From Sipunculus nudus (taxonomy: Eukaryota; Annelida; Sipuncula; Golfingiida; Sipunculidae): a stretch of DNA of 64,000 bases. Shown here one piece after another: positions 1 through 40,970 of the stretch. Within the stretch, counting starts at the first letter, position 1. Each line of letters starts with the position of its first letter. Where the stretch lies: positions 25,815,839-25,879,838 of the forward strand of contig CM049316.1 in the NCBI GenBank assembly GCA_026874595.1. The letters are read 5' to 3'. A program made the position numbers and the translations under genes. The notes beneath the pieces were generated by a model, which had not been told where the DNA came from, made no database searches, and saw nothing but the letters and a program-made list of their open reading frames with translations.

Positions 1-472
1 TATTAAAATGCTTTATAGAGATAAGAAGGATTATAGAAAATGCCCTTAAAAAATGCCCAGCTAGCAAGCTGAGTTTTTATTCCTTATGCCTTTTATTTAG
101 GAATAGCATTTTGCGGGATATTCAGCGATAAACGGCCAACATCTTGCTTGCCGGACATTCATTACCAAGCAAGCATCACAATAGGTTGCGTCCATCACCG
201 CGATCACGCGTTACTTGGGGGGTGAATGTTCTCGCAGAATCTCCTTACCTTCCTCCTAAGTATCTGAAGGCATTGACTGTCAGTGGCGGATCAAGAAATT
301 GGAGAAAGAGGAAGGGGTTGGCGGCTGACTGACGAGTATTATGAAAATCAAATTCTTAAATTGTGCATTTAATTTTTTTGTTTTATATATATATATATTT
401 ATATATATATATAGTTTCACGCCGTTGCCGGTATCGGCACCCGGGCGATCATCAGATAACAGTTATATATAT

Positions 473-1207
473 TATTACGGAACCTAATATAAACAGATCA
501 CGTATGCGTGATGAACACAAATTCTGTAACGCAGAAAAAAAATCAGATTCTGTAACACTTGGCAGCGGGAAATGTCTAGGGGAATGAATAAAGAAGTCAG
601 TGGTTTTTTGTTAACAAATAACTATAATTTATTCCTAAAACAACCCTAACAATACAATACACTAAATCAATACAATTATACAGTAAAAATAGCGTTATAC
701 CAACAAGTCAATATAATCACACAGAAAGATAATGGTACAGTACCTCGATACCAACCCCGTCACCACGATAGGCCCTTGGAATGTAAACTCTCGGAGAACG
801 ACAGTCCAGTGGAAAGTTCTTGCAACAACACAGAAAGTAAACTGAAGTCCAAATGTATAAAATCCAGGAGAAAATCTTTGAAAATGTATAATTGCTGCAT
901 TCGGTTTTAGAATCTGATACACGCTTCTGCGTCCGCTGGAATCTACTCTGCTGTCTGTCCCCTGGTTCTAAAAACAGCCCCTTCATACACCTTCACCCAA
1001 GCCGGGAACCTTCCACTTCCCGAACAGTCTATAAGGTCTTGCACAACATACGTTTAAGGAATTCTCTAGAAAGAACAGCGCTGTGTATCTCCACACACCA
1101 GGCTTATCACGTGACCCACGACCAGGCGTGAAAGCTCAAGGCTCACATGACAACGAGAGTTCACAACATGAGCTACGCCCGTGCCACACAATAAAAAGAG
1201 CACCTTT

Positions 1208-1211
<4 letters not shown>
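473..1211 (-). mobile_element. Solo LTR of a Ty3/Gypsy-type element (copy 1)
   Basis: On the minus strand this reads as an LTR starting TGTTAAAGG and ending GGTTCCGTAATA. It is related along its length to the LTRs at 11,914-12,648, 32,870-33,590 and 40,971-41,774. The last of these is attached to Gypsy coding sequence and a polypurine tract, which identifies the family. The shared 3' portion carries an AATAAA polyadenylation signal followed by a TTGTTAACA-rich segment. No internal region is attached, so it is a solo LTR. It is flanked on both sides by (TA)n. It is a passenger in the large direct repeat and therefore predates the LINE insertion. Confidence 0.85.

Positions 1212-1258
<47 letters not shown>
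1211..1258. repeat. (TA)n microsatellite
   Basis: An uninterrupted TA dinucleotide tract abuts the 5' end of the antisense LTR. The same tract, with a different length, occurs in the second copy at 12,649-12,697. Confidence 0.95.
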
Positions 1259-1261
<3 letters not shown>

Positions 1262-1997
1262 GCATAATATATTTCATGCTATGAAAATTATAAATATTTT
1301 TTTTTTATTAAAGTTAATAACAAGTGCATGGGGAAGGTAATGGAGCATATTGAGAAAATGTTTATAAGTGTAATGTAAACATGACATTTTTGTAGTACTC
1401 TTCACAAAAAGTATCAGGATTTTCGGTTCCTCAACCACTGTTCTCTTAAACATGTCTTAGCACAATGTAGTCAAACGTTAGAGGTTCAATATTTAATTTA
1501 GGATACAAGTTTCAATCGTTTGAAACATGTTGATGTTAATGGCGAAAACCCCGTCCACATTTATAACTTGCAAGATATATTCTTTCAAATATAATGCTCG
1601 CAGTAAAATAATTAATATACTGGAGTCCAATCTTAAACCGGCTTTTAACGACTTCTGTTGTTTAACCATGCAGCGCACAGAACTCTGACAGCAGAGCACA
1701 GTTCGGGTACTGGCAACTGGAACTGGGTTCCGGGTTTTTGGTACAGGGTTCGGGTACCATCTTTCAGCGGTCATTGTGACTTCATATAACTGTTAATGTA
1801 TGTTTAAAAACATGAGTAAATTTGTTTATCAGAATTTGATAAAGCAGAGTGTCTAATATATAAAATATATAATATAAAAGTTACCCGTGGACAAACTCTC
1901 AAGAATTCATAAAAACAGTCTAACTTTTGTATAGAGACACTTTCTCCGTTCATATAGTAGAGGCAACTGGTAGTGTATGTAGAACTTGGATAAACAG
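1259..1997. other. Host sequence inside the direct repeat, no gene seen
   Basis: The stretch between the (TA)n tract and the SINE is closely matched at 12,698-13,436. Short open frames occur on both copies, including a minus-strand 93-codon frame at 1493-1774. That frame resembles no family I know, and its conservation is explained by the recent duplication. Confidence 0.6.
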
Positions 1998-2186
1998 ACC
2001 GGCTTATGTGGACTCAAAGCCGGGAGATCGTGAGTTCGAATCTCAGCCGAGGCGATGAGATTTAACAGGGTCGGCCCTCTGCAGGCTCTGTGCAGGCTTT
2101 ATGGGAAGGCCGTGCCCAGTGGCCGTGTTTCACTCACAAACAGGGGATCCTCGCAGGGGATCTCGGTGGCCCAGTGATTGGGACGA
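1998..2186 (+). mobile_element. tRNA-derived SINE, 3' part removed by the LINE insertion
   Basis: The segment carries a tRNA-like head with a B-box-like GAGTTCGAATCTC sequence, followed by a GC-richer body. The same family is complete at 13,437-13,778 and occurs in antisense at 42,268-42,655 and 48,905-49,318. In those copies the sequence after gacgat continues with an ACACCC-type body and a 'ggaggcggctacct'-type tail. Here it stops at gacgat and LINE 5' sequence follows. The interruption marks the LINE 5' junction. Confidence 0.85.
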
Positions 2187-2299
2187 TTGGAACGAGTGCG
2201 CATGCGCGGACTGTGAGGACACGCTTGGTGAGAGCTCCAGCTCCTTGCGACTTAAAACAGTAAGTGCCGTCACCATATCTGGAATAAAACTAAAGAAAT

Positions 2300-3229
2300 A
2301 TGCCCAGAAGTAAGAGAAATAAAGAGAGCCAGAGAAGTGTAGACCAGTATTTGTCAAAAAAAGATAAGGACAGCCAACAAGACGACGAACAAGGGATAGC
2401 CGAACAAGACATGGCGGCGAGTGACACGTGTGACACAGGCACACAAGACGAGACTAGGCATTTATCGTTGGACAGTCATTTCAGAATTATGGAAGAAAAG
2501 ATGTGTCAACTGATAAACGAGTGCAGAGATACATTACAGAAAGAAATATCAGGACTAGAAGGAAAAATTGAGAGTATCAGAACAGTTACACAAGAACAAG
2601 AGGAAAAGATAAAGGAAATCAGAGAGAGTGTGGAATTCATTGATGGTCAGTACGACAACAACAACAGAAGGTTAGAACAGTTAGAGAAAGAAAACAATCA
2701 GCGACGCAAAGAAAACGAGACATTACGAAACAGTGAAACATTACTTACAGACAAAATAAAAGATATGGAAACTAACCTGAAAGAAAGGATAATCAACATG
2801 GAAAGATACACAAGAGAGTTTAATCTGAGACTGATAGGGGTGCCTGAAACACAAAATGAGGACTGTGTGGATATTGCAGCTAAATGGATTGTTGAACACA
2901 AACGTTTAGGAGCCGACTGTTCGGTAACGGACGTTAAGAAACATATCGAACAAGCACACAGAACAGGTAAAAAACAAACACAGGGGAAAGAACGCCACAT
3001 TATTTTAAGGTTTTACTCAAGACAAACCAGACATAACACTTTGAAGAACGCAAAGCTGAATAGAACAACGAACCAAACCCCATTCCTTACTGAGGACTTG
3101 ACCAAAGAAGATAACCTTTTGAAAAGACGTGCAATGGACCAAATCAGAGACGCATACAAAGACCACAAAAAAGCGAGATTTTGGCGGGGAATGTTAATAA
3201 TAGATGGCCAGCGAGTTGAAATAAACTAA
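2300..3229 (+). CDS. LINE ORF1 protein, L1 ORF1p-like nucleic-acid chaperone (309 aa)
   Basis: In L1 elements this protein binds element RNA as a trimer and acts as a nucleic-acid chaperone in the RNP. Visible here are a basic, charged N-terminus (residues 1-60), a long heptad-rich coiled coil (about 62-172), an RRM-like core with NLRLIGVPE (175-183, RNP2-like) and HIILRF (233-238, RNP1-like), and a C-terminal domain (about 261-309) with FLTEDLTKED and a basic RRAMDQIRDAYKDHKKARFW stretch. About 300 residues is normal for L1-type ORF1p. The ATG at 2300 is the first in the frame and follows the 5' UTR. The frame is fully open, in contrast to ORF2. The stop codon lies inside a 51-bp tandem duplication. 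Confidence 0.9.
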   Translation: MPRSKRNKESQRSVDQYLSKKDKDSQQDDEQGIAEQDMAASDTCDTGTQDETRHLSLDSHFRIMEEKMCQLINECRDTLQKEISGLEGKIESIRTVTQEQEEKIKEIRESVEFIDGQYDNNNRRLEQLEKENNQRRKENETLRNSETLLTDKIKDMETNLKERIINMERYTREFNLRLIGVPETQNEDCVDIAAKWIVEHKRLGADCSVTDVKKHIEQAHRTGKKQTQGKERHIILRFYSRQTRHNTLKNAKLNRTTNQTPFLTEDLTKEDNLLKRRAMDQIRDAYKDHKKARFWRGMLIIDGQRVEIN

Positions 3230-3280
3230 TTTTGGCGGGGAATGTTAATAATAGATGGCCAGCGAGTTGAAATAAGCTAA
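3179..3280 (+). repeat. 51-bp tandem duplication spanning the ORF1 stop
   Basis: 3179-3229 and 3230-3280 are adjacent direct copies differing at one base (aaac versus aagc just before the terminal TAA). The first copy encodes the last residues of ORF1 and the stop codon. The second copy is downstream of the stop and not translated in frame. It is a local duplication inside the element. Confidence 0.95.
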
Positions 3281-6200
3281 GTTGGAGGACAATCACAGCA
3301 CAAGGCAGTTTTCGCTACGGACTTATTTCTTTCAAAGACCACCAACTCAGCAGAGTTTGTTAATATTATATTTCACAAGACTTCCAGACAGGGGGCGACA
3401 CGTGCTTAATTAATGTTCCTTTTCCATTATCGCTCCTTCACTGACTCTGATATTGGTGCCGGACCAGATATACCCTGACGGAGTGTTCACCGGACTTTAT
3501 TCTACCGTATATATAATTGCAACTCATGGAATTATGATACAGTAATATCGACTTCAAATCAGGTACATAAAATGGTATGTTCTTACATTTAACGATGATT
3601 AATTTGATATTTTGTTTAATTTTATTATTGTAAAATGATAGGTCGTTTTATAACTGAACATATATTATTATTTTTTAAGGCAAATTCATAACGGAGTATG
3701 GTATAACTACTTCAATTATTTGTACTTATGAATACTTTACCGCATTTTTTATGCTCCATATTAAATCTTATATACCTTCTCCCAGCAGACCATATCAGAT
3801 CGAGCTAGAGGTTTGACTTTGTCACACAGATCCTAGAGACATAAGTAAACAGATAAGGTTTCCGTTTTCATCTTCTTTCATAATACGAAAAATGCAATAT
3901 AATTATTTTTTAATCTCAGTTGTGTAATTAATCGAAAGGTGTATTACATCGTCATATGTCTTTGCATTAATGTGGAATGTGGATAGAAGACGCAGGTTAA
4001 GTAATGGCAAAAGGGCGGATACACCCTGACAAGCTCACCTCTGAACTTGAAATGCTTATGCGCTACTATCGAAAGAAACATCATAAGCCAGACCTGCACA
4101 AATAATTTAAATATAAATAGCAATATCTTGATATGTCGGAAATATTCCTTTGACTGAAGGATTTTCTTTTCTTGGGTTCAGGTTTAGTTGAACAATATGA
4201 AATATTATAATAGTAAGTATGTCTCCAAAAGTTATAAAAAATACTTGGTATAGTTATAGATTTCTGTAGTAAACAGTTAAAATATTTTGAATCATAACAT
4301 TTGGAGCAACAATATAGATACATCTTATTGTATTCTTAACAATTAATGGAGAAAGTTCTGAACAATCAGTTTAACCACTTAGAAAATGAACAATATTGTT
4401 ATAAAAAGCTTTTGAAAAGGAAGGTATAAATGTGTACGTATATAGTAATGCATACGTTAGAGTAAATCCATATGTTTATGCTAAAGATAAGGCTTTTCTT
4501 AATACGGGAATATGGATACCCATCACATGACCAACTGAAATTAAGCAAACTGAAAGTAAACTAGGAGGGAGCTTGGGATAAGGAAAAACAGGCTTTTTGC
4601 TCTTTTTTTCCTTTATCTGATGTATTAGGGTGATGTTTTTAATAGGTATAGGTTTTTGGAGTCAAAGACAACCAGTGAAAATGGTTGTTATTTACGATGC
4701 AGATAATCTGGATTATTTATATCCATGAGGAACTCACATTTTTTTCTTTTAATCTGACATGTCAAGTTGATGTTATAAATAGACATAGGCCTTTATTGTC
4801 GAAGACCACCTGTGCAAATGGCTATTATTAATGATGCATATAATTTTGACTACTTATATCCATGAGGAACCCATTTTGATGTGTCATTTTCAGGTATTGT
4901 GTATAATTTTGTTATTTTTTTTCCAACTAAGACTTAGACTGGGAAGCTATTAAGTTTCGTATAAGTATGGATCACTGATCGTACAAAATGGAATGTACGA
5001 TATGTCATAATGTTTATGAGGGCTAGATTTATACTTTATAAATTATATTCCTATAGAACCGAAGAGAATACGTTACAGATGACGAAGCATGTCACCATTA
5101 ATTCTGATGTCATGTTAAATTCAATATTCATTGAATTTTTTGTTTAAATGTAGAGTTTTATATTAGTTTCTTTTTTGAACTGAAACACTAAGTCTGTTAT
5201 GTTAAAATAATATTGAATATGTACAACGCATTAATATCTTCCACACACCTGGATCGAATATAATGATTCTTTACCTTTAATTCTTTCCACTTAGGAAGAG
5301 AGGTTACACAGGGACCAGGAACATATTATTAGGGGAAAGTGAACTTATCTGGCTTCTTTTTTTTCCATTGCAACCACCAACCATTTTATGTATTTATATG
5401 AAATTGGAACGGCGTACAGATACACATGGGTTTTGAAATAGTATAACCATTGCAGAAAGATACTAGAACATTCATCTTTTACAAAAATTGATACTTGTAT
5501 TACAGATATTAATGGCAATCTATTAGACAGTTTCTAATGATCAAAGATTGTTCCTTTCTTAAAAAAAAAAAACTCCCATGTAATGTTTGAAGATTTCGTA
5601 TTATTATACAAGAAATAATTTATTTGTGACATTAAGTTAAATTTTGGTTATATTTAAAACATGTATAAAGTTATTGTTCACATTTAATGACCTCTGGTAC
5701 TGATGAATGTATAATGCTACTAAGTTGTAGCTTAGATATGTACAAATATTATTTTACTTATTTATTGTTTGGTTGTTAACAGTAACATTTATCTTCATAT
5801 GTGACGGGGCATTTATTGAAATTAATATACACAGGTATTATTCTGAAGAAAACAAGGTAAGAGAAGTATTTTTATCAAATATTGTAGCGATTTGGAATAT
5901 TTTGCTCTTACTTTTTTTATATAGAAACACATGTTAATGTTTTGGGTTTATGCATATGCATTTAGTATTATACCCTTCATTTTAGAGGTGTAAAGATCCT
6001 ACGGTAGAGTTAGTGGTATAACAATTTTTCCTAAAAAAAATGGTATTTTCGATATTGCTATGCATATTCAGTAGTATTTTAAAAAGGTATAAAAAAGTAG
6101 TTATCGTGAAAATAAGTCTCCACAGGCAGCTTCCTATATTTTGGTTTAATCGTATAAAACAAAGAAAAAAAAAATGCCAGGTGATAAATAGTGGAAGTTT

Positions 6201-6893
6201 TAAGATTATTTAAAAAAAATAAGTATCATATTAACATACCAGGAGGTCAGAAATGCATCTCTGTACTTAAGAAGAGAAAAAACAAGGTTAAATATTATAT
6301 GAAAAGAAACGGTTAAAATACAATGTGGTGTTAATTATAATCAACTTTAGGAGACAGAGAGCTACCAATCTCCCTGATTAGTACTTATAAGTTTGTGTAT
6401 CTTACATTTTTCGTGTTAGATAGACGTTATCAAATACTTATTAACCTCATTTCATATTAGGAAATCGGTAAATTAAGAAGTAATATAATACATGATTGAT
6501 AAATAATAAAAAAAAAAACTTCTTCATGCCAGGATACACATATAGTACATCTCAAAATTAAGGCGAGACTTACCTTACTTAAATGTTAAAGATATTCTGA
6601 TTCGGCACCAGGCAGGGTCTAACTTATATAACCAACTAAAATTATATTTTTATAGCCTTTTAGTCGTAAGTACAATAAGTATTAGTAAGTGAAAAGGAAC
6701 GAGTGATGTTAAATACTGTAGAAGCTGGAGTCTCGTTCAGCACTGATATACAGCAGTCTATTATGTTCAGTGCCAAGGAGCAGCATTTTTTGTATTTATG
6801 TCCTTACACACACGCACAAATGCACAATTTTTCTGTATGTTATGTGTATGCAGGTATTTATTCAATTGATACTCTTAGATTCTATTAATATAT
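3281..6893 (+). other. Long non-coding inter-ORF region of the LINE
   Basis: About 3.6 kb of strongly AT-rich sequence separates the ORF1 stop from the ORF2 ATG. L1-type elements usually have from a few bases to a few hundred here. No frame longer than about 80 codons is open, and none of the short ones is recognisable. It contains a diverged direct repeat at about 4617-4880. It may be a genuine long spacer, an intron-like segment, or an old insertion whose ends I cannot see. Confidence 0.55.
4617..4880 (+). repeat. Diverged tandem repeat, two units of about 130 bp
   Basis: Two neighbouring segments (about 4617-4750 and 4752-4880) share the order TCTGA..., a TTGATGTT-like block, a 'tttttgg/ctttatt' block, a GTGMAAATGGYTRTTATT block and TATATCCATGAGGAAC. 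They are clearly related but diverged, indicating an old tandem duplication within the inter-ORF region. Confidence 0.75.
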
Positions 6894-9800
6894 ATGTCTG
6901 AGATAGTTTCATTAAATGTACGGGGGCTTGGGGATAATATTAAAAGAAGAGAAACTTTTCATTGGCTACAATTGAGCAAAGCAAAAGTAATTCTACTACA
7001 GGAAACGCACAGCTCAGTAAAAGATGAAGAAAAATGGAAGGCAGAATGGGGTGGTCCAATATTTTTTTCACATGGTACTTATAATTCAAAAGGAGTTTGT
7101 ATTTTATTAAAAAATGATGTTAATTTTGAAATACATGATACTATTAAGAGCGAAAAAATGACAATTTTTAATACTAGACATTACGATAGAAGACATACAA
7201 ATGACATTGGTAAATATATATGGGCCTAATCAAGATAATCCAGATTTCTTTGAAACAATAATGGACCACATTGATTCTTTTTCAAATGATCATAGAATAT
7301 TAGCTGGAGATTTTAATTTAGTGCTAAAAATTAATCAAGATAAAAGAGGAGGTAATCCTACAACACACGTTAGAGCACAAGCGATAATTAATATGTGGTT
7401 TGATAATTTTGATCTAGCAGATATATGGCGAGAACAACATCCAGTACAAAAAAAATATACTTGGAGTAGAACGAGACCTACACAGATATTTTGTAGATTA
7501 GATTTTTTTCTTATATCTAAAGGATTGAGCGGAAAGGTTGAAAAATCCTATATTTCCCCAGGCTTTAAAACAGATCATTCAATGGTCGGGATTTAAATTG
7601 ATTTAAACCTAAAAAAAAGAGGACCGGGCTTTTGGAAATTTAATTGTAAATACTAAGAAAATTCAGATTATACTAAACTAGTTAGAGAAACAATTAAAGA
7701 AGCAAAACAATATAATAATAATGCAAACCCTGCTTTATTGTGGGACACAATTAAATGTAAGATTAGAGGGGCTACAATTGCATTCGCTTTCAAGCAAAAC
7801 AAAGAGAGAAAAGTTACACTGCAACAAATGGAAACTAGACTTGCTCAATTAGAGGATCAATATGGAAAGACATCTGATTTAAAAATTTTACAAGATATAC
7901 ATGAAATGAAACTAAAAATTGAGAAAATCATCCAGGAGAAAACAGCAGGCGCTAGGTTTAGATGTAGAACTAATTGGTATATGGATGGAGAAAAGCCATC
8001 AAAATATTTTCTAGGTTTGAAAAAAAGATTATATAACCGAAAAACTATTGTAAAATTAAGAAAAGGAGAAACTCTTGAAGAAACGAACAATCAGTATTTA
8101 ACGGATGAGAAAGATATATTGAAAGAAATTGAAACATTTTACACAAAATTATATTCATCAGAAATGTTAAAACCTTCCGATGAAAACTTGAATGAATTTT
8201 TCCCAGAAGATAATCCAAAAACCCTCTCAGAAGATGAAAAATTAAACTGTGATACAGAATTAACAGAAAAGGAACTTAAAGAATGTTTAAAATCATTTAA
8301 AAATGGCAAAACACCAGGCACAGATGGTTTGCCTGCAGAATTTTATAAATTTTTCTGGAAAGATATAAAAAATGATTTAATGGCCTCATATAGATATTCA
8401 TATTTAAATCACAGACTTAACATATCTCAACGACAAGGAGTTATAACATTGATCCCCCAAAAAAACAAGGACAACCTCTTATTGAAAAACTGGAGACCAA
8501 TTTCACTTTTGAACTTTGACTATAAATTATTAACAAAATGTATAGCTATTAGACTTCAAAAAGTTTTGCCGAATATTATCCATTCCGACCAAACGGGGTT
8601 TCTACAAAATAGATACATTGGAGAAAGCCTGTCGAGAATTTATAATTTAATCTCCTATTGCTGTAAAAATAAAATTAAAGCCAATTTAATGCTTATAGAT
8701 TTCCAGAAGGCTTTTGATTTATTAGAATGGTCATTTATTCAGAAAGCTCTTAAATATTATAATTTTGGAGATACTATTTGTCAATGGATAAAAGTCTTTT
8801 ATACAGATATAACAGCATGTGTTTTGAATAATGGTTGGTCTAAAAAATGTTTTAATATTTGTAGAGGTGTACGACAGGGATGTCCTCTGTCACCATATTT
8901 ATTTATTATATGTGCAGAACTATTGTCTACACGAATAAGAAATAATATAAAAATTAAAGGTATAGAGATAAAAAATGTAAAACACACAATTTCACAGTAT
9001 GCAGATGATACTTCATTATTCATAAGTGGCGGCAGAGATTCTATAAAAGAAACCATTGACCAATTTAATAGATTTTATCATGTCAGCGGGCTCAAAATTA
9101 ACTTAGAAAAGACTGTAGTGATGCCAATGGGAAACCATGAATACAGAAAAAATGATATTATAAATATGGGTCTACAGTGGACAACTGGACCAGAAACAAT
9201 ATTGGGTATTAAGATAAATAATAGACTACAAAATTTGTATGAACTCAATTTTGAACCAGTCCTAAGAAATATAAAGAATTTGTTAAGTGTATGGAAAAGA
9301 AGAAAGATGGCACCACTGGGGAGAATTACTGTGATTAAATCAGAATTAATTTCACAATTGCAGTATCTGTTCTCACTTTTGCCTAGTCCACCGTCATCTT
9401 TTCTCAAAGAGATAGAAGTTTTGTTTAGTAACTTTGTATGGAATAGTAAAGTAGATAAAATAAAAAGAACAACATTAATAGCGCCAAAAGATGATGGAGG
9501 ATTAGATATGGTAGACATCTGGTCCAAACTAAAAGCAACGAAAATCACATGGGTAAAAAGATTGTGAAAAGAAAATAGTAATTCAGGGTGGAGACAGTTA
9601 GTTAACATATGTTTAAAAAAACATTGCTAGTTAAATATTTACTTGTAATATAAAAATTAATGATGCAAAAGATGTCCCACTCTTTAAAAAATTAAATATA
9701 TTTTGGTTTGAAATAATTTTAGAGTGGTGTGGGTTTAACTTTTGCATACCTGAAAAAACTAATGAGTTTTTGAAACAATCTGTTTGGTATAATTCACATA

Positions 9801-10568
9801 TTAAAATAAATGGCAAAGTTCCTTTTTTATAAGAAATGGTATGATGCGGGCATTCGATATATACAGGACTTAACAAAGAAAGAAAACAACCATTATACTT
9901 TCTGTAATAAAGATGAATTACAGAATACATTTGGTATCAAAATAGACACAATGAAATATAATAGTATCATGCACGCTATACCTCAAAAATGGAGAAGAGA
10001 AATTAAACACAGATACAGTCAAGAAGAACCATATGTATATAAAATTGATAAATTATTACAACAAAAGAGACCCACAAACTATATATATAATATATTCATT
10101 GGAGTGAAATGTACACAGCTGGAAAATACCATCTTAATGTGGCAAAATGATATCCCAGAATGTACAAAAGATAATATAAATGAAGCATTCCATAACATTT
10201 ATATTATATCGATCTCTACTAAATTAAGATATTTTCAGTATAAAATTCTACATAGGATCCTGGCTTTAAACCCCTTCCTGGTTAAAGCTGGCATAACAGA
10301 TACTGATCTTTGTACATTCTGTAAAGAGGAGAAAGAAACTCTAATACATATATTTTATGACTGCATCCATATTAAAGAACTTTGGACAAAGGTATATAAT
10401 TGGCTTTTTGACCTTGGTATACCAATAATCTTTTCTGCAAAAATAATATACATGAACATGAGTTCAAATAGATTATTAGATAAAATTATACTTTTTTATA
10501 GTATTATATATATGTCACAAAGTGCAAAGGGAAAGTATTATCAATTGATGCAGTTAAAAGTTTTATAA
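6894..10568 (+). pseudogene. LINE ORF2, endonuclease plus reverse transcriptase, broken
   Basis: ORF2p nicks the target and reverse-transcribes element RNA. The apurinic-endonuclease-like domain opens at ATG 6894 with SLNVRGL and LLQETHSS. It then shifts frame near 7200 and continues with NIYGPN, GDFN, RLDFFLIS and TDHS. Two in-frame stops follow (7594-7596 and 7654-7656). The RT domain lies in the open stretch 7738-9567: GKTPGTDGLPAEF, NWRPISLLNFDYK, motif A LIDFQKAFD, motif B GVRQGCPLSP and catalytic QYADD with its two Asp intact. A stop at 9565-9567 and two further frame changes (near 9640 and 9825) precede the C-terminal piece 9810-10,568, which holds a C-x2-C...H-x4-C motif (CTFC...HIFYDC) typical of L1-type ORF2. 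Total length of about 1,225 codons is normal. At least three frameshifts and three stops make it a pseudogene. Confidence 0.92.
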
Positions 10569-10911
10569 AAAATTATTATCATGTTGAGAAAAAAGTTGCA
10601 AGGTGTAAAGATAAACTCGGTTACCACGAAATATTGTGGAAACCATTTATCAGCCAAATAACTTAATTGGTTAGCATACTACTAAATTTTACATAATTAG
10701 ACCATTAGAATATTTTTTTTTAATAGACAATTTTTATGGAAAACAACTTTAAATTACCTGAATGTTAATAAACACTACACCTGCGTTTTGTACTTGTCTT
10801 CTTGTATGTCATGTTTATATATTTTCTGTCATTGTATTTTTTTCTCCTGTATTTATATATGTATGAATGTATTTGTATTTGAACAATAAAACTTGTAAAA
10901 AAAAAAAAAAA
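10569..10911 (+). terminator. LINE 3' UTR, AATAAA and poly(A) tail
   Basis: The 3' UTR is AT-rich and non-coding. AATAAA at 10,885-10,890 is followed six bases later by 15 consecutive A (10,897-10,911). After this the sequence changes character, marking the 3' junction with host DNA. Confidence 0.85.
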
Positions 10912-11735
10912 TTGTCCATTTGCCATACCTTAATGAATTGTTTGGGGGAGTGGTGCCAAAACGCAAATTTGCAACAATACCATTGACCGGAATTCATTTA
11001 CAAAAGAAAATATCCATGAAAAAATAAGATTCTGTAGACTAATCTTGTTTTGTATGGCCTTAGTTTTGACTTGGTCTTGCAAACCTTACACACTCCGGCT
11101 GAGCTGAACCCCTTAATTTTATAATATGATTTTTATCTAATATTTGTCTTCTCGTTTAAATATTGATAATATTGTGTATTATCCTAAGCATGTACTGACC
11201 TTAGAAGGTTATTTATTGATATCACTGACAAAGTAGTTTGAATAATAGTTTTATTTTTCAAAATAGCCACAAATTTACCTTTTTTTCATTTTCTAACAAA
11301 ACTGGTTTTTAACCCCCGATCAATTTGAAAATCCGCGCTTTGTTGCACATTCTTATTAAAATGCTTTATAGAGATAAGAAGGATTATAGAAAATGCCCTT
11401 AAAAAATGCCCAGCTAGCAAGCTGAGTTTTTATTCCTTATGCCTTTTATTTAGGAATAGCATTTTGCGGGATATTCAGCGATAAACGGCCAACATCTTGC
11501 TTGCCGGACATTCATTACCAAGCAAGCATCACAATAGGTCGCGTCCATCACCGCGATCACGCGTTACTTGGGCGGTGAATGTTCTCACAGAATTTCCTTA
11601 CCTTCCTCCTAAGTATCTGAAGGCATTGACTGTCAGTGGCGGATCCAGAAAATCGAGAAAGGGGAAGGGGTTGGCGGCTGACTGACGAGTATTATGAAAA
11701 TCAAATTCTTAAATTGTGCATTTAATTGTTTGTTG

Positions 11736-11737
<2 letters not shown>

Positions 11738-11788
<51 letters not shown>
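11738..11788. repeat. (TA)n microsatellite
   Basis: A near-perfect TA tract with one or two interruptions, longer than the corresponding tract of the left copy (about 388-413). Confidence 0.9.
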
Positions 11789-11790
<2 letters not shown>

Positions 11791-11913
11791 TCCTAAACAG
11801 AGCAAGTTAACTAAACGTTATAAGCACGCTGGAGCATTGTGTTATCACTCGGAGTTTCACGCCGTTGCCGGTATCGGCACCCATGGCGATCATCAGATAA
11901 CAGTTATATATAT

Positions 11914-12643
11914 TGTTACGGAACCTAATATAAACAGATCACGTATGCGTGATGAACACAAATTCTGTAACGCAGAAAAAAAATCAGTTTCTGTAACACT
12001 AGGCAGCGGGAAATGTCTAGGGGAATGAATAAAGAAGTCAGTGGTTTTTTGTTAACAAATAACTATAATTTATTCCTAAATCAACCCTAACAATACAATA
12101 TACTAAATCAATACAATTATACAGTAAAATAGCGTTATACCAACAAGTCAATATAATCACACAGAAAGATAATGGTACAGTACCTCGATACCAACACCGT
12201 CACCACGATAAGCCCTTTGAATGTAAACTCTCGGAGAACGACAGTCCAGTGGAAAGTTCTTGCAACAACACAGAAAGTAAACTGAAGTCCAAATGTATAA
12301 AATCCAGGAGAAAATCTTTGAAAATGTATTCATCGGATAAGGTCTTAGAATCTGACACACGCTTCTGCGTCCGCTGGAATCTACTCTGCTGTCTGTCCCC
12401 TGGTTCTAAAAACAGCCCCTTCATACACCTTCACACCCCAAGCCGGGAACCTTCCACTTCCCGAACAGTCTATAAGGTCTTGCACAACATACGTTTAAGG
12501 AATTCTCTAGAAAGAACAGCGCTGTGTATCTCCACACACCAGGCTTATCACGTGACCCACGACCAGGCGTGAAAGCTCGAGGCTCACATGACAACGAGAG
12601 TTCACAACACTACGCCCGTGCCACACAATAAAAAGAGCACCTG

Positions 12644-12648
<5 letters not shown>
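11914..12648 (-). mobile_element. Solo LTR of the Gypsy-type family (copy 2, duplicated with its flank)
   Basis: This is the counterpart of the LTR at 473-1211 and was copied with the host segment. On the minus strand it runs from AGTTACAGGTG (family consensus TGTTACAGGTG) to GGTTCCGTAACA, the expected terminal bases. It has the same AATAAA-containing 3' part. (TA)n borders it at 12,649-12,697 and a TATATAT stretch lies at its other end. Confidence 0.85.

Positions 12649-12697
<49 letters not shown>
12649..12697. repeat. (TA)n microsatellite
   Basis: A TA dinucleotide tract beside the antisense LTR, equivalent to the tract at 1211-1258. Confidence 0.95.
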
Positions 12698-12700
<3 letters not shown>

Positions 12701-13436
12701 GCTTAATATATTTCATGCTATGAAAATTATAAATATTTGTTTTTTATTAAAGTTAATAACAAGTGCATGGGGAAGGTAATGGAGCATATTGAGAAAATGT
12801 TTATATGTGTAATGTAAACATGGCATTTTTGTAGTACTCTTCACAAAAAGTATCAGGATTTTCGGTTCCTCAACCACTGTCCTCTTAAACATGTCTTAGC
12901 ACAATGTAGGCAAACGTTAGAGGTTCAAATTTAATTTAGGATACAAGTTTCAATCGTTTTAAACATGTTGATGTTAATGGCGAAAACCCCGTCCACATTT
13001 ATAACTTGCAAGATATATTCTTTCAAATATAATGCTCGCAGTAAAATAATTAATATACTGGAGTCCAATCTTAAACCGGCATTTAACGGCTTCTGTGGTT
13101 TAACCATGCAGTGCACAGAACTCTGACAGCAGAGCACAGTTCGGGTACTGGCAACTGGAACTGGGTTCCGGGTTTTTGGTACAGGGTTCGGGTGCCATCT
13201 TTCAGCGGTCATTGTGACTTCATATAACTGTTAATGTATGTTTAAAAACATGAGTAAATTTGTTTATCAGAATTTGATAAAGCAGAGTGTCTAATATATA
13301 AAATGTATGATATAAAAGTTACCCGTGGACAGACTCTCAAGAATTCATAAAAACAGTCTAACTTTTGTATAGAGACACTTTCTCTGTTCATATAGTAGAG
13401 GCAACTGGTAGTGTATGTAGAACTTGGATAAACAGA

Positions 13437-13778
13437 CCGGCTTATGTGGACTCAAAGCCGGGAGATCGTGAGTTCGAATCTCAGCCGAGGCGATGCGATT
13501 TTACAGGGTCGGCCCTCTGCAGGCTCTGTGCAGGCTTAATGGGAAGGCCGTGCCCAGTGGCCGTGTTTCACTCACAAACAGGCGATCCTCGCAGGGGATC
13601 TCGGTGGCCCAGTGATTGGGACGATAATACACCCAGGCCACGCAGAAGAAATAGTCACCAGGCCTGATTAACACCAGAATATAGAATGAGAGGAAGCGTC
13701 TGATACTGTCCGAATGGAATTCTGCAGATGTAGATATACTTAGTTAAGCTGGCATTAAAATGGAGGCGGCTACCTCCA
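13437..13778 (+). mobile_element. Complete tRNA-derived SINE (family A)
   Basis: The head starts near ccggcttatgtgg and contains a B-box-like GAGTTCGAATCTC sequence. The body includes ctctgcaggctctgtgcagg and a gggacgataatacaccc block, and the tail is gcattaaaatggaggcggc followed by tacctcc. Antisense relatives at 42,268-42,655 and 48,905-49,318 share head, body and tail in the same order, which defines the limits. It belongs to the right flank of the LINE locus and preserves the sequence that the LINE interrupts at 2186. Confidence 0.85.
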
Positions 13779-22150: not shown

Positions 22151-25100
22151 TTGGTGGTCATCACATAATCATTGTCACAAACAGGTAACATGTGATGAAG
22201 GCCGTCATCACTTAATTATTGTCACACACAAGCCTCATGTGATAAAGCGGTCATAAAACCCTTTACTATGGTCACATACAGGTATCATGTGATGATGGTG
22301 GTCATCACTTTATTGATAATTGTCACACACAGGTATCATGTAATGATGGCGATCATTTCTTAATCACTTTCATCCACATGTAACATGTGTTGATTACGGT
22401 CATCACTTAATCATTGTCACACAGAGGTATCATGTGATGATGATAGTCATCACTTAATTATTGTCACACAGAGGTATCATGTGATGATGATTGTCATCAC
22501 TTAATTATTGTCACACAGAGGTATCATGTGATGATGATAGTCATCACTTAATTATTGTCACACAGAGGTATAATGTGATGATGATAAATTATTGTCACAC
22601 AGAGGTATCATGTGATGATGTTAGTCATCACTTAATTATTGTCACACAGAGGTGTCATGTGATGATGGTGGTCATCACTTTATTGATAATTGTCACACAC
22701 AGGTATCATGTAATGATGGCGATCATCTCTTAATCACTTTCATCCACATGTAACATGTGTTGATTACGGTCATCACTTATTATTGTCACACAGAGGTATC
22801 ATGTGATGATGATAGTCATAACTTAATTATTGTCACACAGAGGTATCATGTGATGATGATAGTCATCACTTAATTATTGTTACACAGAGGTATCATGTGA
22901 TGATGATAAATTATTGTCACACAGAGGTATCATGTGATGATGTTAGTCATCACTTAATTATTGTCACACAGAGGTATAATGTGATGATGGTGGTCATCAC
23001 TTTATTTATAATTGTCACACACAGGTATCATGTAATGATGGCGATCATCTTTTAATCACTTTCATCCACATGTAACATGTGTTTATTACGGTCATCACTT
23101 AATTATTGTCACACAGAGTTATCATGTGATGATGATAGTCATCACTTAATTATTGTCACACAGAGGTATCATGTGATGATGATAGTCATCACTTAATTAT
23201 TGTCACACAGAGGTATCATGTGATGATGATAGTCATCACTTAATTATTGTCACACAGAGGTATCATGTGATGATGATAGATATCACTTAATTATTGTCAC
23301 ACAGAGGTATCATGTGATGATGTTAGTCATCACTTAATTATTGTCACACAGAGGTATAATGTGATGATGGTGGTCATCACTTTATTTATAATTGTCACAC
23401 ACAGGTATCATGTAATGATGGCGATCATCTTTTAATTACTTTCATCCACATGTAACATGTGTTTATTACGGTCATCACTTAATTATTGTCACACAGAGTT
23501 ATCATGTGATGATGATAGTCATCACTTAATTATTGTCACACAGAGGTATCATGTGATGATGATAGTCATCACTTAATTATTGTCACACAGAGGTATCATG
23601 TGATGATGATAGATATCACTTAATTATTGTCACACAGAGGTATCATGTGATGATGATAGTTACACTTAATTATGGTCACACACATTTATCATCTGATGAT
23701 GGCAATAAAACACTTTACTTTAGTCACAAACAGGATGATGGTGGTCATCAATTAATTATTGTCACACACAAGCCTTATGTGATAAAGCGGTTATCACTCA
23801 ATACCTGATGCATACAAGTAAAATGTGATAATGGCTATTAAACCCTTTACTATGGTCACATACAGGTATCATGTGATGATGGTGGTCATCACTTTATTGA
23901 TAATTGTCACACACAGGTATAATGTAATGATGGCGATCATCTCTTAATCACTTTCATCCACATGTAACATGTGTTGATTACGGTAACACTTAATTATTGT
24001 CACACGGAGGTATCATGTGATGATGATAGTCATCACTTAATTATTGTCACACAGAGGTATCATGTGATGATTATAGTCATCACTTAGTTATTGTCACACA
24101 GAGGTATCATGTGATGATGATAGTCATCACTTAATTATTGTCACACAGAGGAATCATGTGATGATGATAGTCATCACTTAATTATTGTCACACAGAGGTA
24201 TCATGTGATGATGATAGTCATCACTTAATTATTGTCACACAAAGGTATCATGTGATGATGATAGATATCACTTAATTATTGTCACACAGAGGTATCATGT
24301 GATGATGATAGTTACACTTAATTATTGTCACACAGAGGTATCATGTGATGATGATAGTTACACTTAATTATGGTCACACAGAGGTATAATGTGATGATGG
24401 TGGTCATCACTTTATTTATAATTGTCACACACAGGTATCATGTAATGATGGCGATCATCTTTTAATTACTTTCATCCACATGTAACATGTGTTTATTACG
24501 GTCATCACTTAATTATTGTCACACAGAGTTATCATGTGATGATGATAGTCATCACTTAATTATTGTCACACAGAGGTATCATGTGATGATGATAGTCATC
24601 ACTTAATTATTGTCACACAGAGGTATCATGTGATGATGATAGTCATCACTTAATTATTGTCACACAGAGGTATCATGTGATGATGATAGATATCACTTAA
24701 TTATTGTCACACAGAGGTATCATGTGATGATGATAGTTACACTTAATTATGGTCACACACATTTATCATCTGATGATGGCAATAAAACACTTTACTTTAG
24801 TCACAAACAGGATGATGGTGGTCATCACTTTATTATTGTCACACACAAGCCTTATGTGATAAAGCGGTTATCACTCAATACCTGATGCATACAAGTAAAA
24901 TGTGATAATGGCTATTAAACCCTTTACTATGGTCACATACAGGTATCATGTGATGATGGTGGTCATCACTTTATTGATAATTGTCACACACAGGTATAAT
25001 GTAATGATGGCGATCATCTCTTAATCACTTTCATCCACATGTAACATGTGTTGATTACGGTAACACTTAATTATTGTCACACAGAGGTATCATGTGATGA

Positions 25101-26580
25101 TGATAGTCATCACTTAATTATTGTCACACAGAGGTATCATGTGATGATTATAGTCATCACTTAGTTATTGTCACACAGAGGTATCATGTGATGATGATAG
25201 TCATCACTTAATTATTGTCACACAGAGGTATCATGTGATGATGATAGTCATCACTTAATTATTGTCACACAGAGGAATCATGTGATGATGATAGTCATCA
25301 CTTAATTATTGTCACACAGAGGTATCATGTGATGATGATAGTCATCACTTAATTATTGTCACACAAAGGTATCGTGTGATGATGATAGATATCACTTAAT
25401 TATTGTCACACAAAGGTATCATGTGATGATGATAGATATCACTTAATTATTGTCACACACAGGTATCATCTGATGATGGCAATAAAACACTTTACTTTAG
25501 TCACAAACAGGATGATGGTGGTCATCACTTTATTATTGTCACACACAAGCCTTATGTGATAAAGCGGTTATCACTCAATACCTGATGCATACAGGTAAAA
25601 TGTGATTATGGCAATTAAACCCTTTACTATGGTCACATACAGGTATCATGTGATGATGGTGGTCATCACTTTATTGATAAATGTCACACACAGGTATCAT
25701 GTGAAGATGGCGATCATCTCTTAATTATTTTCATCCACATGTAACATGTGCTGATTCCGGTCATCACTTCATTATTTTCACACATATATCACACACACAT
25801 ATGATGATGGCGGTCTTCACTTAATTATTGTAACACACAGGTATCATGTGATGATGGCGATCATATCTTACTTATTTTCATCAACATGTAACATGTGTTG
25901 ATTACGGTCATCACTTAATTATTGTCAAACACAAGTATTATGTGATGATGGCGGTCACCACATAATTGTTGTCACATACAGGTATCACGTGATGATGGCG
26001 GTGATCACTTAATTATTATCACATACAGCTATTACGTGAAGATGGTGGTCATTGCTTAATTATTGTCACACACTGGTATCACGTGATGATGGCGGTCACC
26101 ACTTAATTATTGTTACATACAGGTATCACGTGATGATGGTTATCATCACTTAATTATTGTCACACGCAGATATCATCACGTGATGATGATGGGCATCACT
26201 TAATTTTTGTCAATCACAGGTATCATCATGTGATGATGGTGAGCATCACTTAATTTTTGTCATACACAGGTATCACGTGATCATGACCTAATTTTTATCA
26301 CACACAGGTTTCATGTGTAATGGTGGTCATCACTTTATTTGTCACATACAGGTATGATGTGATGTTGACGGCCATCACTTTATTATTGTCATACTGTATC
26401 ATTTGATGATGGCGGTCATCACTTAATTAATGTCACACAGAGGTATCATGTGATCATGGCGGTCATCATTTATTTATTTTTTTTTTCATCCACAAGTAGC
26501 ACGTGATCATTCCAGTTATCCCCAGGATATGAACATGCACAAGTAGCATGTGTTGATGATGGTAGTCATTGAAGTATTGA
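22151..26580. repeat. 47-bp minisatellite array with higher-order structure
   Basis: The basic unit of 47 bp runs from ttattgtcacacagaggtat through catgtgatgatgatagtcat to cacttaa. Each unit contains the palindrome-like TCATGTGA and an inverted pair GTGATGA...TCATCAC that could form a 7-bp stem. A variant unit carrying tcatccacatgtaacatgtg recurs at 22,371, 22,741, 23,063, 23,443, 23,955, 24,473, 25,032 and 25,732, at spacings near whole multiples of 47. A larger block recurs with catacaagta or catacaggta at 23,811, 24,888 and 25,588. Units become more diverged at both ends, and TCACGTGA replaces TCATGTGA near 25,980-26,280. Open frames here are artefacts of the repeat. Confidence 0.97.
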
Positions 26581-26639: not shown

Positions 26640-27682
26640 TCACATCCTTGTTTCCTGATCCGGTGAGCCTGGCATTACAGCGTCGACGCCGGGGCTGTTC
26701 CGCCCTCCTCCACTCCTACTACGAATCAGAAACGCAGTTTTCATCAGGTGGACAAACAGGGCACGTGCATCTTCCCGGAAAACTTTACTTCCAACATAAT
26801 ACAATAAAATATTTATTGCATAATGCAGTAACATTACTAGATGTGTTATGTAGTAAATGAAATGAACTATTTTTCCTCCTAAGATCCAGACCAATGTACA
26901 AGACACAGCGTGAGGGACATTTAAAATCACCGTTGTCAACGTAATTAACAAAACAAACTTGATTGCTCGATTGTTATTTTGGATTCTCCCTATATCAACA
27001 CTGGATGAACTCAGCTTGCCTAGGTTTCTCGAGGAACGCCGCAGATGTCTGATTAGCAACACAGATAGGGCAAGTATGATGTTGTTAATCACCATTGTCT
27101 TCATAAAAAGTAGAGTGCCCATTACCACCTCAAAAGAATATATAGAACAGCGTCCTTTGAAGTTTAAAAGGGGATATGTTGCAGCAGAAGCGACAAACGT
27201 AGCCAGTGACGTCATTGCGACCGTTAAGGCCATATTTCGGTATTTCAAAATCCGGAACCTTCTGAGAGGTCGGGATAGTGAAAGGTAGAGTGCCAAAGCG
27301 ATGAACATAATGATTATGTTTGACATTGTTACTCCCCAGGGTGATATGACCGTAAATATATAGCATAACACAGGGAAAGATAAGTGCGATCTACTTTGTC
27401 CAGACAGTTTAAAAATAATGTATCCGAAATTGTTAGGTAAATTAAAAGGAATCCTGTTACGGTGTTTCTGGTTTTACTGGATGAGAGCAAAATTATTAGT
27501 GCAGTACAATTCCCAACTGAGCCAAGCACAGCTATAACAACAAAAGCAATATCACGAGCACAGCGGCAGATACTTTGTAGGTAACTTAGGTACATATAGT
27601 AGTCCAAAAATATGTCATGTCGGAACAAATACGTCCCATTGATATGTGTCACGTTGTCAAGCGGGTCTCCACTCAAATTCAT
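26640..27682 (-). pseudogene. Intronless rhodopsin-family GPCR with one frameshift
   Basis: A seven-transmembrane receptor, probably of the peptide-receptor type; ligand unknown. The first frame (27,682 to about 27,400) gives an N-terminus with three N-glycosylation sequons (NLS, NVT, NGT), TM1 with GSVGN (Asn of position 1.50) and TM2 with SD (Asp 2.50). The second frame (about 27,400 to 26,640) gives TM3 to TM7, ending in NILLYY (NPxxY-like, Pro missing) and a FRE helix-8 start, then an Arg/Ser-rich tail. The frames join in extracellular loop 1 by a one-base shift, beyond which 'LNCL' should continue as 'SGQSRSHLSFPVLCYIF'. The DRY motif is ALY, so the key arginine 3.50 is leucine. TM6 lacks CWxP. 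No introns are visible. The frame break could be a real mutation or an assembly error; the otherwise open frame suggests recent or no decay. Confidence 0.85.
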
Positions 27683-34092: not shown

Positions 34093-35165
34093 CAGTGATG
34101 TAGGACCCGAGTCCACTTTTCTAGTAACTCGAACTTCTCGAGGCTTCTAGACTCGGTCTTTGACTCGAAGCTTCAAGACCCTGACTTTGACTGGAGGCTC
34201 CTAGACTTGGCCTTTGACTGGAGGCTTCTAGACCCGGACTTTGACTCAAGGCTTCTAGACTCGGACTTTGACTCGAGGCTTCTATACTTAGACTTTGACT
34301 CGAGGCTTCTATACTTGGACTTTGACTCGAGGCTTTTAGACCCGGACTTTGACTGGAGGCTTCTAGACTTGGACTTGGACTGGAGGCTTCTAGACTTTGA
34401 CTTTGACTGGAGGCTTCTAGACTTTGACTTTGACTCGAGGCTTCTAGACTTGGACTTTGACTCGAGGCTTCTAGACTTGGACTTGGACTCCAGGCTACTA
34501 GACTTGGACTTTGACTCGATGCTTCTAGACTTGACTTTGACTCGAGGCTTCTAGACTTTGACTTGGACTCGAGGCATCTAGACTTTAACTTGGACTCGAG
34601 GCTTCAAGACTTGGACTTGGACTCGAGGCTTCTAGACTTGGACTTGGACTCGAGGCTTCTAGACTTGGAATTGGACTCGAGGCTTCTAGACTTGGACTTG
34701 GACCCGAGGCTTCTAGACTTGGACTTGGACTCGAGGCTTCTAGACTTGGACTTGGACTCGAGGTTTCTAGACTTGGACTTTGACTCCAGGCTTCTAGACT
34801 TGGACTTGGACTCGAGGCTTCTATAGAAAAAAAATATATGCCATTCACATACTATAAAGTATTATGTTATATACATCTACTTACATAACATTACAGGATA
34901 AGAAAGCTAAATATACAAAGTTCTGTATCTTTGAACTAAATTTTATTTACCGTTATTGTAAAAGCATGTTTAATCTCACTAATCAATGTACATGATATGG
35001 ATATTTGCATTGGACTGTGACTTGAACTTTGGTTCCTAACGACTCGAACTCAAAGAAGATGGACTAGGACTCGAACCTCAAGGACTCGGGCTTGGACTGG
35101 ACTCGAGTGCCCTGGACTCAAACTTGTACTCGAACATGGTTGGTATGAACTCGACTAAATCACTG
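34093..35165. mobile_element. hAT-like MITE with an internal 27-bp minisatellite (1,073 bp)
   Basis: The termini are CAGTGATGTAG on the left and CTAAATCACTG on the right, i.e. CAGTGATKTAG inverted repeats starting with the CAGTG typical of hAT transposons. The flanking octamers TCTTGATG (34,085-34,092) and TCTTGTTT (35,166-35,173) match at six of eight positions, consistent with an 8-bp hAT target duplication. From about 34,150 to 34,820 the interior is a 27-bp repeat (gacttggacttggactcgag followed by gcttcta). 34,820-35,020 is AT-rich, and degenerate repeat words return near 35,040-35,150. No transposase is encoded. Confidence 0.8.
34150..34822. repeat. 27-bp minisatellite inside the hAT-like MITE
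   Basis: About 24 units of a 27-bp repeat made of two or three ACTTGG/ACTTTG words plus CTCGAGGCTTCTAG. Because 27 is divisible by three, frames stay open: plus reads LLDLDLDSR repeats and minus reads EASSPSPSL repeats. XhoI-like CTCGAG recurs in most units. I do not regard either frame as a gene. Confidence 0.95.
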
Positions 35166-38274: not shown

Positions 38275-38875
38275 GTAGCGGTCATTACTTAATTCTTGTC
38301 ACACACAGGAATCATGTGATGATGGCGGCCATCAATTAATCATTGTCACACACAGGGATTATGTGATGATGGCGGTCATCACTTAATTATTGTCACACAC
38401 AGGTATCATGTGACGATGGTGGTCATGACTTAATTATTGTCGCACACAGGTATCATGTAATGATAGCGATCATCACTTAATTAATGTCACACACAGGTAT
38501 CATGTGACGATGGTGGTTATCAATTATTGTCACACACAGGTATCATATGATGATGGCGGTCATTACTTTATTATCGTCACACACAGGTATCATATGATGA
38601 TGGCGGTCATCACTTAATTATTGTCGCATACAGGTATCATGTGATGATGGAATTATTGTCACACACAGGGATCATATGATGATGGCGGTCATTACTTTAT
38701 TATCGTCACACACAGGTATCATATGATGATGGCGGTCATCAATTAATTATTGTCGCACACAGGTATCATGTAATGATGGTGGTTATGACTTAATAATTGT
38801 CACACACAGTTATGATGTGATGATCTCAGTCATTACTAAATTGTTGTCACACACATGCAGGTATCATTGATGAAG
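38275..38875. repeat. Minisatellite, third block
   Basis: About twelve units related to the 47-bp repeat of 22,151-26,580, most of the type ttattgtcacacacaggtat, catgtgatgatggcggtcat, cacttaa. Several units are shortened. The repeats lie on the same side of a GPCR fragment as in block A. Confidence 0.95.
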
Positions 38876-40027: not shown

Positions 40028-40129
40028 ACGGGTGAAAATGGATACTGGGCCCGAATGTGGGTTCGAACCCGTAACTTGTGACACAAGCTTCACTAGCAAG
40101 GCCAGTAGGAACGCTTTTCTGTGTCCGGT

Positions 40130-40192
<63 letters not shown>
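39932..40192 (-). mobile_element. tRNA-like sequence between two (TA)n tracts with inverted ends
   Basis: TA tracts at about 39,932-40,024 and 40,133-40,192 enclose 40,024-40,137. The outer ends atatgtaacggg and ccggttacatat are inverted copies. On the minus strand the centre reads TGGCCTTGCTAGTG (A-box-like) and GGGTTCGAACCC (perfect B box), so it is a tRNA-related sequence, perhaps a small SINE. The inverted ends could make the whole unit fold back. Confidence 0.6.
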
Positions 40193-40200
<8 letters not shown>

Positions 40201-40970
40201 CTTACCGCACAACAACAGCAAGACCTCAAGAACCTGCTGCGGAATTATGAACATTTGTTTAATAACATTCCAACGAGAACTAACATATTGTGCCATGACG
40301 TCGATGTTGGCGAGGCTAGCGCAGTCAAGCAGCATCCTTATAGACTAAATCCAGAAAAGCAAAAGTATCTACAGGATGAGATTCAATATTTGCTGGGCAA
40401 TGATTTTATTGAACCAAGTAACAGTAACTGGAGTTCACCATGTATTCTTGTGCAAAAACCTTATGGAAGTTACCGTATGTGCACAGATTATCGAAAACTG
40501 AACTCTAACACCAAGACTGATACGTTCCGGATTCCGAGGAATGATGATTATATTGATTGAGTCGGTAGCTCCAGATATATTTTCCAAACCAGAAAATCTA
40601 CTCCACTATAAAAAAAGAATGTTTGGCTTTGATTTTGGCATTGCAACATTTTGAAGTTTATGTTACTTCATCAGTCAAGTCTATCATTGTCTTCAGTGAT
40701 CACAATCCCCGAACGTTAATGAACAAGTTGAAGTGTAAAAATCAAAGATTGTTGAGATGGAGTTTGTTCTTACAAGATTACAACCTTGAAATCAGACACA
40801 TTAAAGGGAAAGACAATGTACTTGCTGATTGCTTATCGATATGTTTATGAAATGTTGTATACAAGATGTTTATGTAAAGTTGTAAATAAGATGATTTTTG
40901 AGATGCTGTAAAAATTGAGTGATTTTGATCGCAGAAAAGAAAACTTTCTTTTTTCTTACAGGAGGAGGAG
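40201..40970 (+). pseudogene. Ty3/Gypsy pol remnant (RT N-terminus joined to RNase H) and polypurine tract
   Basis: The frame from 40,201 shows the region before and at the start of a Gypsy RT: KQHPYRLNPEKQ, then NDFIEPSNSNWSSPCILV and CTDYRKLN, ending in DDYID at a TGA (40,558-40,560). After about 30 bp the sequence jumps to the C-terminal RNase H/connection region (STIKKECLALILALQHFEVY, SDHNP, NQRLLRWSLFLQDYNLEI, RHIKGKDNVLADCLS), which stops at 40,848-40,850. The catalytic centre of RT and the first part of RNase H are deleted. Only about 120 bp, ending in the polypurine tract ggaggaggag (40,961-40,970), separate it from the LTR, and no integrase lies there. The 5' part of the element is lost at the (CA)n/(TA)n boundary. 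Confidence 0.9.

Follow-up and report, generated by a model that had tools for sequence, protein, structure and literature searches.

A natural 2.64-kb duplication around a LINE in Sipunculus nudus, very probably created by a single insertion

Structure of the locus

We analyzed a stretch of 64,000 nucleotides of the Sipunculus nudus genome (the window), which corresponds to positions 25,815,839–25,879,838 of the 79-Mb contig CM049316.1 in the 1.43-Gb assembly GCA_026874595.1. Coordinates below are window positions, and those with a minus sign lie upstream of the window. The locus consists of an 8.7-kb long interspersed nuclear element (LINE) located between two direct copies of a 2.64-kb target sequence, and this flanking duplication is confirmed. 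One insertion of the LINE very probably created it as a giant target-site duplication (TSD).

The LINE occupies positions 2194–10911 of the forward strand and ends in a tail of 15 A's. Its open reading frame (ORF) 1 (2300–3229, forward strand) is open over 309 codons, and the end of ORF1 carries a 51-bp tandem pair at 98% (3178–3280). Between ORF1 and ORF2 lies a stretch of 3.6 kb (3281–6896, forward strand) without any ORF of at least 120 codons, parts of which are common to sister copies of the element; a long ORF-less stretch at this place is unusual in L1-type elements. The ORF2 region (6897–10568, forward strand, its start read by eye) is broken into several frames and has Pfam matches to PF14529 (just over the cut-off), RVT_1, and zf-RVT. 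Its best PDB match was human L1 ORF2p (8c8j, 8uw3), with the reverse transcriptase part matching over 605 residues (E = 4.2e-69), compared with 3.7e-15 for the best R2 protein. Judged by this predicted endonuclease and reverse transcriptase, the element is an L1-type retrotransposon without long terminal repeats (LTRs). It differs from human L1 in the 3.6-kb stretch between the ORFs and in its short leader, with ORF1 starting 106 bases in.

The LINE appears to be complete, as its ends coincide with those of its sister copies. Six of eight sister 5ʹ parts started at 2194–2196, the remaining two being C4 (2211 in one search, 2194 in another) and C10 (2278). An A-rich tail was found at the same 3ʹ place in 20 of the 22 sister 3ʹ ends listed, and the other two have lost that end. 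L050 and L055, which had lost the 3ʹ end, and the weaker matches L060–L066 were excluded from the sister count.

Boundaries of the duplication

Self-comparison of the window revealed direct repeats between 1–413 and 11,354–11,765 (96.9% identity) and between 413–2,187 and 11,853–13,625 (97.0%), both with E = 0. A preliminary description of this DNA had placed the pair at 1–2186 and 11,353–13,625; the pair was found at 97%, with the left copy ending at 2187 and not at 2186. It had further predicted that the 441 bp just upstream of the window would match 10,912–11,352. When 20 kb of upstream DNA (L009) was compared with the window, positions −447 to 0 matched 10,912–11,353 at 95.8% identity, only a few bases off the prediction. 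The left copy thus begins at the same target position as the right copy, which follows the LINE tail immediately. We delimited the left copy at −452 to 2187 (forward strand, 2,640 bp including the boundary bases AAATT, beginning at L009:9548) and the right copy at 10912–13625 (forward strand, 2,714 bp), directly behind the LINE poly(A).

The left boundary reads GGCACT/AAATTTTGTCC opposite A(15)TTGTCC behind the LINE tail, and no match was found upstream of it. Both the upstream comparison and the boundary alignment were checked for a repeat running beyond the poly(A) junction, and in both the match stops there. The flank to the left of the boundary is a different repeat, which ends about 134 bp before it. 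In a scan of the 84 kb of window and upstream DNA for direct repeats (≥250 bp, ≥93% identity), this duplication gave two rows, and the only further entries were one row from a 181-bp tandem array and an upstream 309-bp tandem pair.

When −447 to 2187 (2,635 bp) was aligned with 10,912–13,625 (2,714 bp), the 2,620 sites compared contained 66 substitutions, and there were 12 gaps of up to 88 bp; cutting the left copy one base shorter at each end gave 66 substitutions in 2,618 sites and two more end gaps. Only the right copy has the 88 bp, which adjoin a TA run (412/413 vs. about 11766–11853); the left copy may have lost them once the duplication had formed. The longest substitution-free stretch between the copies was about 267 bp, which by hand was judged not significant as a sign of gene conversion.

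At its 3ʹ end the LINE abuts the right copy to the base, as had been described. The left copy, which had been said to end exactly where the LINE begins, is separated from the LINE 5ʹ end by six extra bases (2188–2193, forward strand), a possible templated filler. Positions 2186–2194 read ATTGGAACG and are identical at eight of nine bases to the adjoining target ATTGGGACG (2177–2185), where at least 8/9 matches in register would be expected by chance with a probability of about 1e-4 before correction for the choice of register. This resemblance suggests error-prone joining at the 5ʹ junction. Like a TSD, the direct repeat has one boundary behind the A tail and the other at the 5ʹ end of the element, here with six extra bases on the 5ʹ side; its length of 2.64 kb is outside the usual 5–30 bp, a range that is typical and not strictly defining.

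The same arrangement could be produced by an assembly error in which a haplotype with the LINE was joined to a haplotype free of it, the two copies being alleles. The 2.5% difference between the copies is within the heterozygosity range of some marine invertebrates, and our evidence comes from assembled sequence. An empty allele that could settle the matter was not found either: when positions 1275–1980 were searched, full coverage among the best 40 of 1,189 candidates was confined to the two known copies (100% and 98%), and the rest were partial matches at 67–85%. The structure of the junctions argues against such an error. The join would have to land, gapless, at most a few bases from the end of the LINE poly(A), with the other copy starting there by chance, and neither the window nor the 20 kb upstream of it contains a single N. 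Moreover, the far boundary carries an A-rich priming site like those of the family, whereas inspection by eye showed no such site shortly before GGGACGAT, where a short duplication at the 5ʹ junction would require one. We thus consider an assembly error unlikely.

The interrupted target

The left copy carries an LTR-like repeat (about 470–1211, forward strand) and a short interspersed nuclear element (SINE) that is cut at the LINE (about 2010–2187, forward strand), consistent with the earlier statement that an LTR and most of a SINE had been duplicated. It had also been observed that the LINE splits the SINE at gacgat and that the whole SINE is found only on the far side. Indeed, the SINE runs uninterrupted across the right junction 13,625/13,626 (13448–13760, forward strand; extent as matched, the query having ended at 13,760). 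Among the best-scored 40 of 3,373 candidates, all 38 other SINE places crossed the position equivalent to 13,625; the list held 41 rows, comprising two from this locus, one second piece, and the 38 others. Another SINE copy within the window is also continuous across the junction (49,284–49,010 vs. 13,448–13,711). As the listed SINE copies cross this point, the right copy represents the intact target, and it is the left side that the LINE interrupts.

TSDs and priming sites of sister copies

To place the window copy within its family, 20 sister 3ʹ ends (window copy excluded) were scanned. Four of them had no 5ʹ end in the locus (C15b, C6, C5, and C13), and 16 had both flanks readable. For C4, C10, C3, C12a, and C12b, the 5ʹ and 3ʹ ends lie 5.5–10.9 kb apart on one contig and were assumed to belong to one element. 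Eleven sisters had a TSD of 9–19 bp (C15a, C4, C9, C3, C14, C12a, C10c, C12c, C11c, C12b, and C13b), with that of C3 read by eye at the junction and those of C4, C14, C12a, and C13b containing one or two mismatches. Two had a weak 7-bp TSD located 14–21 bp back from the junction (C6b and C9b), and three had none (C10, C8b, and C11b). The flank of C10 is itself a repeat and is uninformative. For C8b, no second copy of the flank was found near its element among the best 40 candidates.

A long direct repeat reaching the junction was found in none of the 16 sisters when flanks of at most 1.5 kb each were compared, with at most five matches per copy. The same scan detects the duplication of the window LINE itself; as the 5ʹ flank was down to 417 bp (C8b), it reaches duplications of 2–3 kb at most. 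Matches were obtained for C3 (a simple repeat), C10c (101 bp, 82%), and C11c (34–79 bp, 77–91%), none of which reaches the junction, and each of these three has its own short TSD. The 2.6-kb duplication is more than 100 times longer than the TSDs at most sisters examined. A family habit of giant duplication was rejected, since the 16 sisters show short TSDs or none and no long one; the ordinary or missing TSDs of the sisters point to one exceptional event.

The TSD opened with at least two A's in all 11 sisters having a clear TSD, and the preceding base was T in eight, C in two, and G in one. The left boundary of the window copy, T/AAA in CACT/AAATTTTG, fits this pattern and would represent the endonuclease site, as evidence of modest strength from a single copy.

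The priming site also bears on whether the LINE endonuclease was involved at all. In an endonuclease-independent capture, a staggered or replication-associated break would have been filled in and LINE complementary DNA (cDNA) captured in the process. The filler at the 5ʹ junction is reminiscent of end-joining, and an excerpt of PMC2671141 describes large duplications arising from break repair. However, target-primed reverse transcription is indicated by the full length of the element, by its 15-A tail, and by the A-rich priming site where the tail meets the target, and we regard capture as very improbable.

Age of the insertion and of the duplication

The preliminary description had proposed to compare the divergence of the two copies with that of the LINE. 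The copies differ by 2.52%, or by 2.25% when eight clustered changes are counted as one, which corresponds to 1.13–1.26% per copy. The terminal branch of the window LINE, summed over four partial segments, was 1.17% over 4,771 bp. For the individual segments, it was 0.48% in the 5ʹ segment (1,036 bp, seven copies), 0.99% in the spacer segment (1,241 bp, six copies), 1.55% in the 8,403–9,850 segment (six copies), and 1.53% in the 3ʹ segment (1,046 bp, 14 copies). The input of the 3ʹ tree was 13 of the 22 sister 3ʹ loci, and a script removed copies with less than 85% identity or low coverage; C8 was excluded by hand from the spacer tree, and C15b fell out of the 8,403–9,850 tree. The ratio of LINE to copy divergence was 0.93 (95% range, 0.64–1.32), or 1.04 (0.71–1.50) with the cluster taken as one change. 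The two values, 1.13–1.26% and 1.17%, are close, and on this comparison the insertion and the duplication look to be of the same age.

The similarity of the two divergences is not predicted by an assembly artefact. It also bears on a scenario in which a 2.64-kb tandem duplication arose first and the LINE was later inserted exactly at its inner junction. Tandem duplications are common, and the final product would be the same. In that case, however, the copies should predate the LINE, and they are not detectably older. The LINE would also have left a short duplication of its own, and insertion within a few bases of the junction is improbable, by a rough estimate of the order of one in thousands. 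We give this order of events next to no credence.

Proposed mechanism and its weighing

We propose that a single LINE insertion produced the giant TSD in the following way. The process would have begun with a bottom-strand nick by the LINE endonuclease at CACT/AAATTTTG (position −452). Reverse transcription, for which the position of the A tail and an A-rich site like that of the sisters point to priming at −452, would have run through the whole LINE. The full-length cDNA would then have joined the top strand 2.64 kb downstream, at GACGAT/AATAC inside the SINE, whereas in most sisters the nick would have been some 15 bp away. The second end may have been a distant nick on the same molecule or the 3ʹ end of a sister-chromatid break, and the sequence is compatible with both. 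Joining would have left a few filler bases, apparently copied from the adjoining target, to give the product flank-A-LINE-A-flank, that is, a 2.64-kb tandem duplication with the LINE in the middle. Both copies and the LINE would afterwards have diverged together, by about 1.2% per copy. Distant second-strand cleavage or repair of a staggered break had been suggested earlier; the boundaries and the similar divergences support the giant TSD.

Several points weigh against a single insertion as the origin of the duplication. The evidence consists of one assembly, and no empty allele was seen among the candidates scored. It is a single case, as none of the 16 readable sisters has a long duplication and three have no TSD at all. 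For the age of the LINE, the terminal branch gives an upper bound, and its segments spread widely (0.48%–1.55%). At the boundary, TTTT in the left copy stands opposite TT in the right copy, which puts a 2-bp change into the reading of the priming site; as 2.8% of the positions in the region carry TAA and 1.0% carry TAAA, the match to the priming pattern is modest evidence. No sequence elsewhere spanning the left boundary was found among the best 40 of 2,805 candidates. The list of SINE places, being made up of the best-scored ones, favors long matches.

Loss of nucleotide-excision repair (NER) was considered as a cause and was not supported. An XPC/Rad4 domain, the NER component searched for (XPA and XPD not included), is encoded in the genome, with two matches over the cut-off; the search gave no match in 14 control genomes and thus lacks a positive control. 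Loss of this gene is therefore not indicated as the cause.

Comparison with known cases

The comparisons below draw on excerpts of the cited reports. TSDs of LINEs are usually 5–30 bp, and TSDs of kilobase size have also been reported (PMC5223499). In NER-deficient human cells, L1 TSDs ranged from 5 bp to 5.3 kb in the text, with a median of 1,495 bp and a table row of 6,765 bp, whereas complemented cells had a median of 14 bp and a maximum of 1.6 kb; it was proposed that without NER a more distal, unrelated nick is used (PMC5223499). In CSA-deficient cells, TSDs of up to 29,902 bp were found, compared with up to 3,450 bp after complementation, and the medians were ordinary in both; despite the maximum of 29,902 bp, the median in the deficient cells was the usual 12–13 bp (PMC5717806). 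In an oesophageal tumour, an L1 bridged a 22.6-Mb tandem duplication and had an endonuclease motif at its 3ʹ breakpoint; bridging between sister chromatids was proposed (PMC7058536). An excerpt of PMC4805530 states that, to the knowledge of its authors, TSD sizes are only canonical for L1 insertions outside HeLa cells, whether inherited, de novo, or somatic.

The S. nudus locus resembles the insertions in NER- and CSA-deficient cells in that the element is L1-type, that the 3ʹ sites in those cells are mostly endonuclease sites, and that the target is duplicated directly, over a few base pairs to several kilobases (excerpts of PMC5223499 and PMC5717806). It differs in that those cases were engineered L1 in culture, whereas here a natural copy is about 1.2% diverged per copy. 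With the tumour case (excerpt of PMC7058536), it shares an L1 in the middle of a tandem duplication and an endonuclease motif at the 3ʹ breakpoint; that event was somatic, on a megabase scale, and involved a short L1, whereas here the duplication measures 2.64 kb and the element is full-length. A natural inherited LINE copy with a kilobase TSD was not found in the open-licence literature searched. The locus is a natural case in a known class of mechanism, rare and not categorically new.

In the reports cited here, kilobase LINE TSDs come from human cell culture and from tumours, and a natural TSD of 2.64 kb dated by two agreeing clocks suggests that the aberrant route also works in the germline. 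More tentatively, LINEs could regularly supply animal germlines with kilobase tandem duplications through giant TSDs, the cDNA reaching across to a distant break that may lie on the sister chromatid. The products would then persist to more than 1% divergence per copy and escape looping-out by recombination between the repeats. We hold this generalization to be doubtful at present; if it is true, the locus is a dated natural example that carries an LTR and most of a SINE along. The locus is suited to testing the persistence and the looping-out of a LINE between long direct repeats.

Other features of the region

The window contains several tandem repeats outside the duplication. A 47-bp minisatellite forms two blocks, at 22157–26478 (92 copies) and 38278–38855 (12.6 copies), which are about 80% alike and 12 kb apart. 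The 181-bp-unit tandem array lies at 44612–46169 (8.6 copies, 93% matches), and a 27-bp array, with a period that is a multiple of three, at 34137–34823 (25.5 copies at 90%). In the upstream DNA, the tandem pair of about 309 bp extends from −9295 to −8690 (L009) at 99% identity.

Two further ORFs had no Pfam match at 0.001. One, of 243 codons (26640–27371, reverse strand), has many hydrophobic stretches and by eye is membrane-receptor-like. The other, of 160 codons (40078–40560), by eye resembles a Ty3-type reverse transcriptase in its later part.

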